A stretch of DNA of 64,000 nt, taken from NCBI GenBank assembly GCA_029256725.1, contig JAQSXJ010000010.1, forward strand, positions 1-64,000, in the 5' to 3' direction. This document shows, in pieces, positions 12,647 to 61,879 of the stretch. A program made the translations under genes and the position numbers. Positions within the stretch are counted from its first letter, which is position 1. Each line of letters starts with the position of its first letter. The notes beneath the pieces are model-generated. The model was given only the letters and a program-made list of their open reading frames with translations. It searched no databases and was not told the origin of the DNA. Origin of the DNA: Anaerocolumna sp. (GTDB taxonomy: Bacteria > Bacillota > Clostridia > Lachnospirales > Lachnospiraceae).

Positions 12647-12881
12647 TCAGTTTTTCACAAGGGGACGGCAAATTGCACAAACCAGAAAAACGCATGCTTC
12701 AATTCCAAGGTATAAGAAGTCCTAATTCTCTGAATATTTTATGCTTGGCATGTTATGAAACAGATAACTCGCTACGCTCAGACAATCTGTTTCATAACAT
12801 AGCATAAAATATTCAGAGAAAAGGACATCTAATACCTTTCCATAGGCGCATTCGTTCTTTCTGGTTTGTGTAATTTGCCTG
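12647..12881 (+). repeat. MITE-like palindromic element, long copy with nested hairpin
   Basis: The ends are imperfect inverted repeats (GGCAAATTGCACAAACCAG at the left, the complement of GGCAAATTACACAAACCAG at the right). The same element occurs in reverse orientation at 61760-61879 as a 120-bp form and truncated at 26741-26789. This copy carries an extra ~111-bp block (about 12724-12834) that is itself an almost perfect hairpin with arms near 12728-12764 and 12786-12818. It contains no coding sequence, so movement would need a transposase in trans. Confidence 0.75.
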
Positions 12882-12914
12882 AACTATTATGGAAGCTTGA
12901 ACTATGATACTTTA

Positions 12915-24366: not shown

Positions 24367-24429
24367 AAACTGAATACAACGATAGCTTGGATATTGAGGA
24401 AAAGGTTTGTATGAATTAAAGGACGTTTC

Positions 24430-24560
24430 ATACTTCTTATTTGGGCGGCACAATAAGCAAGCTTGCGGTATGCATGGGGTGAACTGTTGAAAAGTTCAAA
24501 TTATACCCTGATTTATAGCAGCGCCACATCTGAAAGCAGATGAGGCAATGCCATGGGAAG
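24430..24560 (+). promoter_or_regulatory. Structured leader related to the tandem RNA modules at 41.5 kb
   Basis: Two hairpin-plus-tail segments are seen. The first is GGCGGCACAATAAGCAAGCTTGCGGTATGCATGGGGTGAAC. The second is GCGCCA, then the stem CATCTG/CAGATG, then GGCAATGCCATGGG. Both follow the pattern GGCA/GCCA, hairpin, GCAATG-like, GGGG seen at 41609-41651 and 41715-41757. A third stem (TATGAA/TTCATA) is just upstream at about 24410-24432. No gene fits in 24367-24628. Confidence 0.4.
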
Positions 24561-39314: not shown

Positions 39315-40784
39315 ATGAAGAAAAAAAGTTTACTAATCCTGCTTGTATTCCTGTTGGTGTTCCTTCCGACCAGAGTTTATGCTGCCGATGGTAAAAGTTA
39401 TGATTATGACGGTTATACCTATAATTACTGGGGAAATGCTGTAGAAAGCCCTGCGGCCTTCCAGCTTGATACTGTAATTGATGAAGCTGATATGGGTGGA
39501 ATCAAAGTGCAGGGGCTGAATGATGTTGCTACCAGCGAAGATGGTCACATATTCCTTGTTGATACCCTTGAAAGCAGAGTTAATATAGTAGATCAGAACG
39601 GAAACTTTGTTAAATCCCTAAAGGTTATCAGGGATGCTGATAATAAAATTGTTATCGATGAGAGTGGTGCTCAGCTGGTTCTTAGTACTCCAGAAGGCGT
39701 ATTTTATCAGGAGAAGAATAAAGAACTCTATATTGCAGATACGGGCGCAGAGAGAATTATTGTATTGGATGGTTCTGACTTTACCTTAAAGAGGGTAATT
39801 AAAAAGCCTGCGAATATGGCAGGAGTTTCAGAATTCAGACCCTCTAAAATAGTAGTGGATAGTGCGGACAGAATCTATGTGGTAGTTCAGTCAAGTTATG
39901 AAGGAATCATTGAGCTGAATCCGGATGGTACTTTCTCCAGGTATTTTGGTGTTAATTCTCCTTCTGTTAATTTTCTGGATTATTTCTGGAAATCCATCTC
40001 CTCTGACAGACAGAAGGAACAGATGAAGAAAACCTTTGCTCCAGCTTTTAATAATGTGGCTCTGGATTCTGACGGTTTTGTTTATGCGGTTACCTTTGAT
40101 GCAGCAGCTGAACATATGGTATTCCGTTTGAATTCCGGTGGCAAGAATGTCTTAAGAGAAAAGGGAAATACCTTTGTTATGGGAGATATTCATAATATGA
40201 ACATGAATGAGCAGAGTCAGTTTGTAGATGTAGCTGTAAAAGATTATGGTACATATGCGGTATTAGATAAATTCAAAGGAAGAATCTTTCTCTATGACTT
40301 TGACGGTCAGTTGCTGAATGCTTTTGGTTCTATCGGAAAAACAAAAGGCTCTTATTCAATTCCAACAGGTATTACCTGGTTAGGAGATAATCTGGTGGTA
40401 ACAGACAGTGCACTGAAATGCGCTTATATATTGAAACCTACAGACTTTGGAAAAGCAGCCTTACAGGCCAGTAAGAACTATTACTATGGTGATTGGGATG
40501 AAGCACTGGTACAGTTTGATAATATCCTTAAGTTAAACGCTAATTATGAAGTGGCATATGTAGGTATCGGTAAGAACTATCTGATGAAAGATGAATACGA
40601 AAAAGCCATGTATTACTTCAAACTTGGCAATAACCGTGAATTCTATTCCAAGGCCTATAACGGGCACAGAGGTGAAGTGTTACAGGATAACTTCGGAATC
40701 ATTGCTGTAATCTTCTTAGCTTTTATATCCCTCGTTCTATATACGGAAGTAAGATATCATAAAAAGGAGAGTGGACATAAATGA
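39315..40784 (+). CDS. Exported NHL beta-propeller/TPR protein with C-terminal membrane anchor
   Basis: This 489-residue protein has a signal peptide (LLILLVFLLVFLPTRVYAADG). NHL-type propeller blades follow (VQGLNDVATSEDGHIFLVDTLESRVNIVD, NKELYIADTGAERIIVLDGS, FRPSKIVVDSADRIYVVVQ, NVALDSDGFVYAVTF, SIPTGITWLGDNLVVTDS). Then come one or two TPR units (YYYGDWDEALVQFDNILKLNANYEVAYVGIGKNYLMKDEYEKAMYYFKLG) and a final membrane helix. The domain layout suggests an extracytoplasmic scaffold or sensor for the transporter. The function is not known. It overlaps the next gene by ATGA. Confidence 0.85.
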   Translation: MKKKSLLILLVFLLVFLPTRVYAADGKSYDYDGYTYNYWGNAVESPAAFQLDTVIDEADMGGIKVQGLNDVATSEDGHIFLVDTLESRVNIVDQNGNFVKSLKVIRDADNKIVIDESGAQLVLSTPEGVFYQEKNKELYIADTGAERIIVLDGSDFTLKRVIKKPANMAGVSEFRPSKIVVDSADRIYVVVQSSYEGIIELNPDGTFSRYFGVNSPSVNFLDYFWKSISSDRQKEQMKKTFAPAFNNVALDSDGFVYAVTFDAAAEHMVFRLNSGGKNVLREKGNTFVMGDIHNMNMNEQSQFVDVAVKDYGTYAVLDKFKGRIFLYDFDGQLLNAFGSIGKTKGSYSIPTGITWLGDNLVVTDSALKCAYILKPTDFGKAALQASKNYYYGDWDEALVQFDNILKLNANYEVAYVGIGKNYLMKDEYEKAMYYFKLGNNREFYSKAYNGHRGEVLQDNFGIIAVIFLAFISLVLYTEVRYHKKESGHK

Positions 40785-41416
40785 AAAATAAGGTCTTAAA
40801 AGAACAATTACATTATTTAAAATATGCCATGTTCCACCCTTTTGACAGCTTTTATGAAATTAAATACAGAGGGAAAGGCAGTGCTCTTATTGCCTCTGTT
40901 ATTCTGGTGCTTTACGGAATCATGCAGTGTATTTCCTATCAGTATACGGGTTTTGTCATGAATATGAATGCCATATTTCAAATGAACAGCATATCTATTT
41001 TTATTTCTGCTTTGTCCGTATTCCTGCTCTTTACAGTGAGCAACTGGACGATTACAACATTGTTTAATGGGAAAGGCAATATGAGAGATATCTATATTGT
41101 CTTAGGATATTCTGTTATTCCGATGCTGCTGCTTAACGGAGTTAGTGTATTTATCAGTAATTTTGTAATTATAGAAGAAGTTATTATATTAAGGTCCCTG
41201 CAGGGAATCGGAGTAGTGTGGTTTGTATTTATCCTGTTGGCAGGCTTATGCATTATTCATGAATATTCCTTTGCTGTTAATATTAAGACGCTGCTGGCAA
41301 CAGCGGTAGCTGCCTTTATTATTGTATTTTTAGGTATACTGTTCTTCTCGTTGATGGAGCGTATGTATTACTTTGTAATGACAGTTGCGAGTGAGCTGGT
41401 AAGAAGGATTAACTGA
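40781..41416 (+). CDS. Yip1-family integral membrane protein
   Basis: This 211-residue protein has five predicted membrane helices and the N-terminal segment LKYAMFHPFDSFYEIKYRGKGSALIAS typical of bacterial Yip1 domain proteins. It is translationally coupled to the NHL gene by ATGA. The biochemical role is unknown; repeated association with sugar ABC operons suggests an assembly or membrane-organising partner (inference). Confidence 0.8.
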   Translation: MKNKVLKEQLHYLKYAMFHPFDSFYEIKYRGKGSALIASVILVLYGIMQCISYQYTGFVMNMNAIFQMNSISIFISALSVFLLFTVSNWTITTLFNGKGNMRDIYIVLGYSVIPMLLLNGVSVFISNFVIIEEVIILRSLQGIGVVWFVFILLAGLCIIHEYSFAVNIKTLLATAVAAFIIVFLGILFFSLMERMYYFVMTVASELVRRIN

Positions 41417-41545
41417 CAGTGCATAGTTTGCGATGCCGCATAACTGGCATCATGTCGCTGGGGATGTGTTTGATAACAGCTTGTGCCATGCTGGGGTTCC
41501 GCTTTGTGGAAAACAAGGAGTGGTGTAGTTTCTCAAACACGACCT
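41417..41545 (+). other. Structured region upstream of the tandem RNA modules
   Basis: GATGCC/GGCATC (41432-41451) is a hairpin followed by the tail CTGGGGATGT, resembling the end of the modules described next. Then GTGTTTGA (41466-41473) and TCAAACAC (41533-41540) close a larger stem containing TTCC/GGAA. It may be a degenerate third module. No reading frame of interest is present. Confidence 0.4.
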
Positions 41546-41651
41546 AAGAGTGAAAGAAAATTTTAAAGGAAAGGCTGCCACAATGAGCTTCTTTCACTCT
41601 TTCATAGTTGTGGCAATATCACAGATCAGCCTGTGATATGCAAGGGGTGTA
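41546..41651 (+). ncRNA. Tandem structured RNA module 1 (cis-regulatory candidate)
   Basis: Stem P1 is AAGAGTGAAAGAA (41546-41558) with TTCTTTCACTCTT (41589-41601). Its loop holds TGCCACAA (41576-41583), which pairs with TTGTGGCA (41608-41615) downstream as a pseudoknot. Stem P2 is TATCACAG (41617-41624) with CTGTGATA (41631-41638), followed by the tail TGCAAGGGGTGT. Module 2 repeats this layout with compensatory changes. Confidence 0.6.
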
Positions 41652-41757
41652 AGGTTGAAAGAAAATATAATTATTGGAAGGATGCCACACAAGGATTCTT
41701 TCAACCTATTTATTTGTGGCAGTACCGCAAGCCGGCTTGCGGTAGGCAATGGGTGTA
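41652..41757 (+). ncRNA. Tandem structured RNA module 2, directly before the DUF5696 start codon
   Basis: P1 is AGGTTGAAAGAA (41652-41663) with TTCTTTCAACCT (41696-41707). The pseudoknot is TGCCACA (41683-41689) with TGTGGCA (41715-41721). P2 is TACCGCAAG (41723-41731) with CTTGCGGTA (41736-41744), tail GGCAATGGGTGTAAAC, then ATG 41761. Compared with module 1, base pairs in P1 and most of P2 differ on both sides in a compensating way, while the pseudoknot and tail are kept. The GGGTG tail overlaps the expected ribosome binding site. Confidence 0.6.
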
Positions 41758-41760
41758 AAC

Positions 41761-44409
41761 ATGAAAGGATTAAGTGAGATTGCGGACTTTTTAAAACCTT
41801 TATCAGATAAGCTCCGTAAGATATATGCCAGACATTTTGCCCGTAAGATGATTGCAACGGTTCTGATTCTGTGTTTTATTATCGGGCTGTTGCGCTATAT
41901 ACCGGTACTTGGCGTCAAGGCTAATAGTTTGCCTCAGGCAGAAAAGGCAGAACTTGCAGTACCAGGAGAGGAAATACCTCATACGGCAGGAGAGGTTCTG
42001 GTTGCAGAGAGCGACTCAAAACAGCTCTATATCAATGCAGAAACCATGAATCTGAAGGTAAAGGATAAGAATACCGGTAAGACCTGGTATACAGCCGTTA
42101 ACGGCAGCAGTCAGGCAGCAGAACTTGCACTTCTGACTCTTTCCTATCTGGGCGAGGATAACAATCTCTATGAATGGGATTCTTATACCTACTGTACGCA
42201 GCTGGGAAGTTATGTATTAAATAAAATCGAAAACGGTGTTCAGATTACCATGGACATCAATGAAGGCGAGTCAGAACGTTTTACCGAATATTACCCGCAG
42301 AAAATGTCCGTTGACAGATTCGAGAATTTCTTTCTGGGTGGTATAAAGACTCTTGTAGATTCCGGTAAGACTGACCAGGCAACCGCTGATAAGTATAAAA
42401 TGACTTTGGAACTGTTATACAAAAAAAGCATTACAGAAGAGGCTTATGCTGTTTCCTATAATGGAACACCTCCAAGGAGTGCGGTTAAACAGCTGATTAA
42501 ACTGGCTGAATTATTAGGTTATACCAGAGATATGCTCATTGAAGACAGTACTGAGATGGGTCTTAGTGTAACTTTTGCAGAACCGGCTCAGTTTAAGGTA
42601 GTTGCAGAAGCAGTACTTGACGGAGATGATTTTGTATTCAGAGTTCCAACCCAGGAGATGGTAAGCGGAAATTCTTTCTATACCATCCAGAACGTAAAGG
42701 TACTTCCGAATTTTGGAGCAGCAGCTTCAAAGGATTATGAAGAAGGATATATACTTGTTCCCGATGGGGCAGGAGCTTTGTTTCAGTTTAATACCTTCAA
42801 TGCAGCAGTACCGGATTATATCAGACCGGTGTATGACAATGATTACTTAACAGATTATTATTTTGCTCCTGAATTCGGAGAAGAGCTTATGATGCCGGTA
42901 TTTGGTATGACTTATGGACCAATGGAGAATGCTTCCCATGGATTTTTAGGAATCATTGAAAAAGGTGCTGAAACCTCATACATAAATGTTAAGCTTGGTT
43001 CCACCTCAAAAGACAGTGCCTCCTCTTATAACAAGGCCTATGTTTCTTTTGATGCTGCACAGTACAGCAGCGTTAAGATCTATGGACCATACAGTGATAA
43101 CAAGGCTTCCTACCTGGTGGATACTGGCGTTTTGGACGTGGATTATATCATTCGTTACAAGTTATTTCCCGGTAAAGTTACCTATTATGATATGGCAAAA
43201 ACTTATCAGGAATATCTGATGCAGCAGTGGGATAGGAAAGAGACAGCTTATCCGGAAAAAGCAAAATTATATCTTAACTTCCTCGGTGGAATTTCCTTAA
43301 CCGAGCGTTTCCTTGGTATACCTTATCAATCTAGTTATTCCATGACTTCCTATGAGGAAATGACAGATATTCTTAACGATCTGCCGGGAGTTAATCTGGC
43401 ACTTAAGTATACAGGTTTCTTTAACGGAGGTTTTGAAAATAAGTTAAACAATAAGGCAGAACAGGTAGCTGCAAATGGTTCTGAGAAAGAGTTTAACAAA
43501 CTGAAAGCTTTAACCCAGGAACGTAATGCTGATTTATTCCTGGAAGTTAATCTGGCAAAGGTATATGACAAGGGGAACGGTTTCAGTGCGAAGAAACATG
43601 CTGTATATGATTACTCTAACACACCTGCTACCATGTACCGTTATCTGCTTTCCTTAGGAATATTAGATGGTTATACCGGTTTTGATGTAAATTATTTCTA
43701 TCTCCTTTCACCCAGGTATTTAAACGGTGTAGTGGAGGATTTCTTAAAAAGTGCATCAGAATATGATAAACTCTCCATTTCTGACCTTGCACATTATAAT
43801 CTTGCAGATTATAGATTCAAGAAGAATGTATCAGTATATGAAGCTGGGAGAATCGTAGACAGCAATTTAGAGAAAATCTCTGAAAGTCATGAGCTGTCTT
43901 TGGAAAATCCTATGATGAAGAATCTGGTATATGGTTCTTATGCAGAAGATATCTCAAGAGAGAGCAGTAATTATGCGACCTTTTATACCACAATACCTTT
44001 CAGACAACTGGTTATGAATGGTCTGGCACAGGTTACCACAGAAAATGTCAATATGTCTTCCAATAATCCGGCTTATTATGTGTTACAGGCAGTGGAACTG
44101 GGAGTATATCCAAAGTTCACCTTAACGGCTAAGAGTGATGATATCTTACAGGAAAGCGCTTATTCCTATTATTATGCAACAGAGTATGAGAAGCAGAAGG
44201 ATACTATTAATCAGGTATACGAAGCGTGTAAGACAGCCTGGGAGGAAATCGGCGACATGGAGATAACAGGTCATAAAATCCTTGGGGACAATGTATTTAG
44301 TACGGAATATGCTTCCGGAGTTAAGGTTATTACCAACTATAACCTTCATTCTGTTAACGTAAACGGTAGTGAGATACCTGCACTCGGATATATTATTTCA
44401 AGAAATTAG
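41761..44409 (+). CDS. DUF5696 protein, membrane-anchored TIM-barrel-like
   Basis: An 882-residue protein with one N-terminal membrane helix (about residues 32-50, MIATVLILCFIIGLLRYIPVLG). Beta-rich domains follow up to about residue 480 (SKQLYINAETMNLKVKDKNTGKTWYT, DYEEGYILVPDGAGALFQFN). Then comes a region like a glycosidase (beta/alpha)8 barrel (KLYLNFLGGISLTERFLGIPYQ, LALKYTGFFNGGFENKL, DLFLEVNLAKVYDKGNGFS, DGYTGFDVNYFYLLSPRYL). It sits outside the membrane in the middle of a sugar-import operon, so glycan processing or binding is plausible; catalytic acids cannot be fixed by eye. I use ATG 41761; ATG 41749 would lie in the RNA module tail. AGGAGG for the next gene overlaps its stop codon. 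Confidence 0.8.
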   Translation: MKGLSEIADFLKPLSDKLRKIYARHFARKMIATVLILCFIIGLLRYIPVLGVKANSLPQAEKAELAVPGEEIPHTAGEVLVAESDSKQLYINAETMNLKVKDKNTGKTWYTAVNGSSQAAELALLTLSYLGEDNNLYEWDSYTYCTQLGSYVLNKIENGVQITMDINEGESERFTEYYPQKMSVDRFENFFLGGIKTLVDSGKTDQATADKYKMTLELLYKKSITEEAYAVSYNGTPPRSAVKQLIKLAELLGYTRDMLIEDSTEMGLSVTFAEPAQFKVVAEAVLDGDDFVFRVPTQEMVSGNSFYTIQNVKVLPNFGAAASKDYEEGYILVPDGAGALFQFNTFNAAVPDYIRPVYDNDYLTDYYFAPEFGEELMMPVFGMTYGPMENASHGFLGIIEKGAETSYINVKLGSTSKDSASSYNKAYVSFDAAQYSSVKIYGPYSDNKASYLVDTGVLDVDYIIRYKLFPGKVTYYDMAKTYQEYLMQQWDRKETAYPEKAKLYLNFLGGISLTERFLGIPYQSSYSMTSYEEMTDILNDLPGVNLALKYTGFFNGGFENKLNNKAEQVAANGSEKEFNKLKALTQERNADLFLEVNLAKVYDKGNGFSAKKHAVYDYSNTPATMYRYLLSLGILDGYTGFDVNYFYLLSPRYLNGVVEDFLKSASEYDKLSISDLAHYNLADYRFKKNVSVYEAGRIVDSNLEKISESHELSLENPMMKNLVYGSYAEDISRESSNYATFYTTIPFRQLVMNGLAQVTTENVNMSSNNPAYYVLQAVELGVYPKFTLTAKSDDILQESAYSYYYATEYEKQKDTINQVYEACKTAWEEIGDMEITGHKILGDNVFSTEYASGVKVITNYNLHSVNVNGSEIPALGYIISRN

Positions 44410-61659: not shown

Positions 61660-61759
61660 ATAAATTGTAATCGTAATCATTATATAAGCAACCTTTATAT
61701 GTATTAATCTCTTATATAATTTATAATTTGAGTATCAAATTCTTGCTTCCAAATGAGTA

Positions 61760-61879
61760 CAGGCAAATTACACAAAACAGAAGAACGAATGCGCCTATGG
61801 AAAGGACTTCTTATGCCTTGAAATCGAAGCATGAGTTTTTCTGTTTTGTGCAATTTGCCGTCCCCTTGTGAAAAACTGA
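61760..61879 (-). repeat. MITE-like palindromic element, short copy
   Basis: Reverse-oriented relative to 12647-12881 and lacking the inner ~111-bp hairpin block. Where the long copy has the block, this copy reads straight through (AAGTCCTTTCC on the minus strand). The outer ends form an inverted repeat (GGCAAATTACACAAAACAG with CTGTTTTGTGCAATTTGCC). It lies within the uxaC 3' untranslated region. Confidence 0.75.

Follow-up and report, generated by a model that had tools for sequence, protein, structure and literature searches.

The window, the whole 64,000-nt stretch of Anaerocolumna DNA that was analysed, contains two structured repeat units that abut directly head-to-tail and are followed by AC and then by the ATG at 41761 of a DUF5696 gene. 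Direct reading of the sequence bears out the two-unit layout given by the first-pass annotation, with the limits shifted slightly to 41548-41652 and 41653-41758. Its assignment of the downstream gene was also correct, with PF18952 matching at E 7.9e-131. The genes on either side of the units belong to one run of genes on the same strand, which includes ABC-transporter permease genes (PF00528 at 38377 and 45316). Bit scores below refer to R1, a covariance model built from 24 copies of the window's own genome that were picked by exact GCCACA/TGTGGC.

40781-41416, + strand: Yip1-domain protein gene, upstream of the units (PF04893, E 1.2e-14)
41548-41652, + strand: unit 1, subtype B, GAGTG; R1 match 112.4 bits
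41548-41558/41589-41599, + strand: unit 1 P1, arms GAGTGAAAGAA/TTCTTTCACTC
41569-41574, + strand: unit 1 GAAAGG
41577-41582/41609-41614, + strand: unit 1 pseudoknot, GCCACA/TGTGGC
41617-41624/41631-41638, + strand: unit 1 P2, arms TATCACAG/CTGTGATA
41644-41649, + strand: unit 1 tail resembling a Shine-Dalgarno (SD) sequence, GGGGTG, then TAA
41653-41758, + strand: unit 2, subtype A, GGTTG; R1 match 112.8 bits
41653-41663/41696-41706, + strand: unit 2 P1, arms GGTTGAAAGAA/TTCTTTCAACC
41676-41681, + strand: unit 2 GGAAGG, a variant of GAAAGG
41684-41689/41715-41720, + strand: unit 2 pseudoknot, GCCACA/TGTGGC
41723-41731/41736-41744, + strand: unit 2 P2, arms TACCGCAAG/CTTGCGGTA
41751-41755, + strand: unit 2 SD-like tail, GGGTG, then TAA
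41761-44409, + strand: DUF5696 gene (PF18952)
24420-24560, + strand: proposed third copy, 74% identity to L211:3048-3187; excluded from the members

Each unit consists of the 5′ strand of P1, a long loop with GAAAGG and GCCACA, the 3′ strand of P1, TGTGGC, P2, and a GGGTGTAA tail. The pattern GCCACA-N5..30-TGTGGC matches twice in the window against 0.01 matches expected, with none of 100 shuffles reaching two, and the fold z-scores of the two units are -3.46 and -2.62. The open reading frame list places the DUF5696 start at an in-frame ATG at 41749, within the tail of unit 2. We favor the ATG at 41761, because 205 of the 209 units having any start carry it at -2 to +2 nt of the unit end. The overlap of the unit 2 tail with the ribosome binding region of this gene, as first described, holds.

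A third copy had been suggested at 24430-24560, which is unsupported: its fold z-score is -0.53, it reaches only 16.8 bits (E 0.38) with R1 with filters off, and by reading its GGGGTG has no start codon directly behind it. At best, 24420-24560 is a decayed or composite relative of the unit. A degenerate unit-like end lies there beside another palindromic repeat (GCCACATCTG..CAGATG.GGC), an arrangement also seen in L014 and L211. The window further holds a long hairpin repeat with CGAATGGAATAAAGCAGAAAG in its arms (12649-12883 and 61735-61877), which recurs at L328:3483-3664 and in many copies in G012 and G014.

The window has no match to Rfam 15 at gathering score, in agreement with the first-pass annotation. 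At E<=10, positions 41400-41900 return two miRNA families and rivX alone, all far below their gathering scores. An ordinary known element, an FMN riboswitch (RF00050, 114 bits), was found at L323:13051-13182. Several simple identities were rejected. A terminator does not fit, as P2 has no T-tract after it and by reading the start codon directly follows; an upstream open reading frame does not fit either, since the ATG in GAAAGGATG and the in-frame tail ATG are both unconserved in the sequence logos. Phage or plasmid origin was rejected on 0 exact-pattern matches in viral contigs, and a BLAST search of the two window units against 72,556 plasmid and 50,697 phage records gave no match.

The units belong to an RNA family that has no Rfam match and is bigger than the two-unit observation. 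The covariance search that had been proposed returned many instances: at E<=1e-3, with 150 of 4674 candidates scored, the window's genome has at least 74 R1 matches, and the complete congener G009 has at least 118 (150 candidates scored). A search of 61 genomes found matches in 16, comprising all 15 of the genus Anaerocolumna and one of the 46 others. Up to 60 candidates were scored per genome here, and among the matches listed G003 and G004 have 3 each, G010 has 22, G013 has 24, and the remaining eleven members of the genus have at least 38. When 397 genomes were drawn from the family and 9 candidates were scored in each, 11 matched (three of the genus and eight others). Robinsoniella peoriensis WT (G216) carries at least 9 R1 matches, and seven other family members carry 1-5 each. 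An exact-pattern scan gave 99 stretches, 93 of them from Anaerocolumna records; the other six come from Robinsoniella (three), a Herbinix MAG, an uncultured Lachnospiraceae MAG, and a contig binned as Pelosinus. The last of these (L128) is probably misbinned, because its score equals that of a unit on an Anaerocolumna MAG contig (L120) from a similarly named sample. In G168, a sub-family (L362-L366) has the pseudoknot GCCCA/TGGGC and a longer gap from GAAAGG to the pseudoknot strand. In most of the Anaerocolumna genomes examined, the module of about 105 nt has reached dozens of genes.

We aligned 235 R1 matches, 229 of them distinct: 73 from the window's genome, 67 from 60 loci of G009 (about half of its matches), and 95 from 80 of 99 named loci, a set that was selected with a strict pattern and is therefore weighted towards copies close to the consensus. 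Among 205 cleanly parsed units, P1 arms pair with their own partners at -13.26 kcal/mol and with swapped arms at -10.44 kcal/mol, and the corresponding values for P2 are -9.74 and -6.15 kcal/mol. This advantage holds within the GGTTG (55) and GAGTG (82) subtypes, a comparison from which the mixed-subtype P2 swap value was left out, and 0 of 30 swaps reach the value of the own arms. G-U pairs exceed A-C mismatches in P1 (70:27), P2 (79:17), and the pseudoknot (43:13), a bias that selection on the sense RNA would produce; other mismatches are also frequent (96, 66, and 39, respectively).

The pseudoknot strands are near-invariant within the genus (133 of 224 identical), where swapping partners makes little difference (-9.91 own versus -9.83 swapped). 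Between genera the two strands change together, from TGCCACA/TGTGGCA to TACCACA/TGTGGTA (G032), CTGCCAT/ATGGCAG (G091), and TGCCCA/TGGGCA (G168). The full helix is present in 18 of 23 distinct outside copies; of the five in which the script found no full helix, three are from G168, with a helix that is partial or visible by reading alone. The selected RNA structure proposed from the two window units, whose P1 stems differ in both bases of two pairs and still pair there, holds across the family, with P1 and P2 covarying copy by copy. The pseudoknot also stands, its strands being complementary in both window units. The units are structured cis-acting RNAs whose helices are kept by covariation on the transcribed strand, and they form an H-type pseudoknot in which the P1 loop pairs 3′ of P1.

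The placement of the units relative to genes is equally specific. In 205 of the 229 distinct units, the start codon of an open reading frame of at least 60 codons (or open to the locus end) lies at -3 to +2 nt of the unit end. A start within +30 is found for 209 units, 98% of them ATG, and 20 units have no nearby start codon. Moving the anchor 60-200 nt upstream leaves 0-4 starts of 226-228, and moving it downstream into the open reading frame leaves 16-27 of 223-224. Some startless units lie directly before a terminator-like hairpin (GAGTGAAAG..CTTTCACTC; L328:1870-1964, L069, L225, and L017) and share its first letters.

The targets in the window's genome are diverse and include FAD synthetase, porphobilinogen deaminase, a class-III aminotransferase, GH115, GH3, an amidase, ABC components, ComEC, MgtC, ClpC, Ham1, LacI, and a response regulator. 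We scanned 30 of the 64 listed own-genome targets besides DUF5696 and found no pathway common to them. Judged from their first residues, target starts in other genera presumably belong to DnaA, ribosomal protein L18, DapB, and others. Between 67 own targets and 63 G009 targets, 3 genes are in common at >=70% identity. We rejected a conserved regulon on this count, which is weak evidence either way because 60 loci of at least 118 G009 matches were sampled without a chance level. The proposed tandem riboswitch is likewise unsupported, given downstream genes of unrelated function, the lack of the second unit in two close relatives, and the mobile-repeat behavior described below. Translation control by the units remains plausible.

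Once in place, the units are under purifying selection. Across 21 ortholog pairs covering 14 own units, none of the 126 GAAAGG positions changed, and in the pseudoknot 10 of 246 did, with the caveat that pairs had to match GAAAGG.TGCCACA with at most three changes, which favors conservation there. Changes numbered 26 of 401 in P1, 22 of 334 in P2, and 194 of 1246 at other unit positions. Outside the unit, they numbered 378 of 1248 (30%) in the upstream 60 nt, 65 of 1638 at codon positions 1-2, and 174 of 806 at position 3. The L047 pair was left out of these rates, as different units of the window tandem had been compared. Single changes in P1 and P2 kept the pair in 20 cases and broke it in 10, and in the pseudoknot 1 was kept and 3 were broken. 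Among double changes there is one true compensation (P2, L063), and two in P1 lost pairing; a pseudoknot change of GG to AT starts from a mismatch and was excluded from the compensations. In the hemC copy (L032), inspection showed the P2 register to be off and both arms to change (T-A to C-G), and the counts were left unaltered. These changes indicate that the fold is kept, with covariation among orthologs alone being thin.

The copies also show lineage-specific amplification. Of 204 units, 107 have their nearest neighbor within the genome that carries them, versus 49.4 +- 6.9 with shuffled labels; in G012 none of 11 units does, and in G008 1 of 13 does. Comparisons with G012 and G014 found the unit present in 21 cases (14 own units) and absent in 4 at 2 sites, a ratio biased towards presence because many loci were chosen for having matches. 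At the first site, C106:11320, both relatives lack the unit and have ordinary leaders that end GAGAGGAGCAAATATG and GAGAGGAGCAGGTATG. The window's genome reads TAGAGGGAA and then the unit here, and the left junction is not alignable with the relatives. This is the only unit before a gene that was found missing in close relatives, the other empty sites read being distant orthologs. At the second site, C127:6952, the unit precedes a hairpin rather than a gene, and the relatives carry about 70 nt of other sequence. For the young unit C127:17963, similarity to sister copies ends within a few nt of the unit edges.

The DUF5696 locus itself varies. G012, G014, and G011 carry a single unit, corresponding to unit 1, and by reading unit 2 is absent from G012 and G014. 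G009 has a near-identical unit 2 with a degenerate remnant of unit 1, and G010 has no unit. DNA identity of the DUF5696 gene to the window is 88% in G009, 90% in G012, and 89% in G014. Since unit 2 occurs in G009 yet not in the slightly nearer G012 and G014, loss or recombination also occurs. No transposition event and no enzyme for it were seen. Of the outcomes that the first-pass annotation had said would speak against its reading, an Rfam match and a lack of further instances were not found, and the mobile-repeat behavior comes close to the third, a match to transposon ends.

A further observation, new to our analysis, concerns the left flank. Of 229 units, 174 were parsed for this purpose, 10 of them tandem and 164 non-tandem. 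Directly left of the unit is a purine-rich stretch followed by AA; of the 174, 75% have A at -2 and 77% have A at -1. In the 164 non-tandem units, pairing energy with the anti-SD peaks at -11 to -3 left of the unit, at -3.76 versus -1.51 (sd 0.14) further upstream. We then ranked 148 non-tandem units from six genomes by age, using similarity to the nearest other copy as a proxy, which depends on the copies sampled. From young to old, the best left-flank SD weakens from -6.70 (n=50) through -6.04 (34) and -3.31 (40) to -2.10 (24), against -2.31 to -2.65 in same-size windows further upstream (Spearman rho -0.58, p 1.8e-14). The flanking AA is found in 41 of the 50 youngest and 10 of the 24 oldest copies, and 47 of the 50 young copies are already at start codons. 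Ordinary genes average -6.98 (n=98), which is only roughly comparable with the -6.70 of the youngest copies, as the search spanned 20 nt for ordinary genes and 15 nt for left flanks. A normal-looking SD at young copies and none at old ones is the trace expected if a copy inserts between SD and ATG and the old SD, no longer of use, then decays. Unit 1 of the window has no visible old SD; read in this way it would be old, and it occurs in G011 too.

Structure, position, purifying selection, and an SD-like left flank that fades with age are the computational observations on which our interpretation is built. We consider it likely that the unit is a small mobile RNA-acting element inserted between the SD and the ATG and bringing its own weak SD. 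A non-autonomous element would enter the spacer between a gene's SD and its start codon, in gene orientation. Its 3′ end (GGGTGTAA) would re-create an SD plus AA, so that the host gene would stay translatable and a further copy could insert behind, leading to head-to-tail arrays. Tandem copies do abut at the tail (L047 and L049), which the re-created SD and AA would explain. The displaced old SD would decay, and the gene would thereby come to depend on the unit. We infer from sequence comparison that the units transpose, contact the ribosome, and make translation depend on their fold.

In the mRNA, the unit would fold as a pseudoknot (P1 plus GCCACA:TGTGGC) followed by the hairpin P2. This fold would offer the ribosome two points of contact, ordered as in a normal SD: the P1-loop GAAAGG, complementary to CCUUUC at the 3′ end of 16S rRNA, and then, beside the start codon, the weak GGGUG tail. 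Many unrelated genes would thus rely on one RNA fold to start translation. The 16S 3′ end, which was found in G012, G014, and Robinsoniella G216 and not in the available sequence of G000 and G009, is GGCTGGATCACCTCCTTTCT. At or below -8 kcal/mol are 9% of 203 unit tails versus 47% of 98 ordinary genes, and at or below -6 the gap is small (54% versus 61%), so it is chiefly among the strongest sites that the tails fall behind. The GAAAGG site is strongly complementary to the 3′ end of 16S rRNA, reaching -8 kcal/mol or lower in 76% of 201 cases. GAAAGG and GGGTG each match one half of the 16S tail, and their order is the correct one; we therefore propose that the folded pseudoknot may present both to the 30S subunit.

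A bolder form of this proposal is possible, and we offer it tentatively. The SD itself may be split, its GGGUG part pairing with the 5′ half of the 16S tail and its loop GAAAGG with the 3′ half, the two being joined only in the folded pseudoknot. The units may belong to a mobile RNA class whose niche is the SD-to-ATG spacer, and each host gene would then initiate through such a split SD; in some species at least one other module family shares this niche. Conservation of GAAAGG could alternatively come from a tertiary contact or from pairing with the CUUUC in the 3′ strand of P1.

A second module (GGTTGAAAGAAAT..CAACC, TTTGTGCCTGCGAAATCCTCGGCACAAA, ..GGAATGGAGAAAAA) has 9 pattern matches in G000 and 45 in G010, where tandem arrays reach up to six copies (e.g., C1:1069884-1070308). 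Copies lying between GGAGG..AA, or a first-family tail, and ATG are L387, L389, L390, L395, L398, L403, L404, L410, L412, and L413. By reading, 11 of 11 copies from G000, G012, and G014 precede an ATG: 7 are behind GGAGG- or GGGG-type SDs, 2 are behind a first-family tail, and 2 have a weak SD or none. L393, the twelfth pattern match in these genomes, looks like chance. Automatic start calls succeed for 18 of 31 copies, some at ATGs within the module. In G006, 1 of 7 copies fits the niche, and most G010 copies that were read are not at start codons, so the shared niche between SD and ATG holds for part of the second family only.

The mobile-element reading has to be weighed against a global regulator owned by the host, which we consider unlikely. 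Here the units would be ordinary cis-regulatory leaders, either a riboswitch for a general signal or a site for an RNA-binding protein, serving a large regulon of fast turnover and switching between two states, the pseudoknot and a lengthened P2 that sequesters the SD by pairing UAUUUGUGGCA with UGCAAUGGGUG. Strong purifying selection, the conserved loop bases, and the tandem copies all suit such a leader, and RNAfold, which excludes pseudoknots, pairs the unit 2 tail with the TGTGGC-bearing strand. The SD-hiding helix is possible, but it lacks copy-specific covariation, as own and swapped partners give the same energy (-4.49 each), and it was rejected as a demonstrated feature. The 30 scanned targets are functionally unrelated, and just 3 genes are shared between the own targets and those drawn from about half of the G009 matches. 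A host regulator also does not predict an SD-like left flank that fades with age.

Still less probable is a purely DNA-level repeat of MITE or REP type, with hairpins that serve transposition only and a nearness to start codons that reflects what selection tolerates. High copy number, lineage-specific amplification, and patchy spread are what such a repeat would give; however, a same-strand start codon lies directly behind 205 of 229 units, young copies are already at start codons, G-U is favored over A-C, and the helices evolve slowly after insertion. The least probable of the readings is that homologous or illegitimate recombination copies a favorable 5′ leader between genes without any dedicated mobile element: the other sequence of about 70 nt at C127:6952 and the unalignable left junction at C106:11320 would suit it, but the abrupt end of similarity at the edges of C127:17963 and the fixed distance of SD plus AA from the left edge of the unit do not.

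Returning to the unit as a mobile element that acts as RNA, several known systems bear comparison. HEARO inserts next to ATGA/GTGA. Like the HEARO/OMEGA RNAs of IS200/IS605-type elements, the units would be structured RNAs of a mobile element, but they are about 105 nt long with no open reading frame and no Rfam match, and their 3′ edge is a translation start with the SD on the element. The SAM-II and preQ1 riboswitches resemble the units in having a pseudoknot immediately 5′ of the start codon, conserved purines in the loop, and an SD beside the fold. The units differ from these in their lack of an Rfam match, unrelated targets, match counts that reach at least 118 in one genome, mobile behavior, and an SD that is not a pseudoknot strand.

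MITEs (as defined in the available part of PMC3049150) are, like the units, short, AT-rich, non-coding, and strongly folded, with many copies, and the units also vary in presence among relatives. By reading, the units show no terminal inverted repeats, starting GRKTGAAAG and ending GGGTGTAA, and no clear target duplication beyond a possible AA at the left edge, which is very short and also ends the tails. The BOX, RUP, and SPRITE elements of Streptococcus pneumoniae are small interspersed modular repeats with strong RNA folds that may form parts of mRNAs and are likely mobile. In the part of that paper available, they are over-represented between convergent genes, whereas the units lie at start codons, and insertion between SD and ATG, an SD of their own, and a pseudoknot are not described there (PMC3049150). 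In a literature coverage that excluded most subscription papers, we found nothing on Anaerocolumna riboswitches or on split or discontinuous SD sequences. PMC3049150 was alone in combining SD, MITE, and repeats, the other titles and abstract openings held nothing of the unit's kind, and the available part of PMC8632094 contained nothing relevant to the units.

If our reading is correct, the unit would parasitize translation start sites, or distribute them. It would be a repeat that enters the one site at which an insertion ought to abolish expression, and that persists by bringing a folded substitute, which would explain how one RNA fold came to lie on dozens of unrelated genes in a genus. It would also mean that high copy number and good covariation alone do not make a riboswitch, and the units would offer a natural setting in which to test whether RNA folding can bring separated pieces together into an SD.
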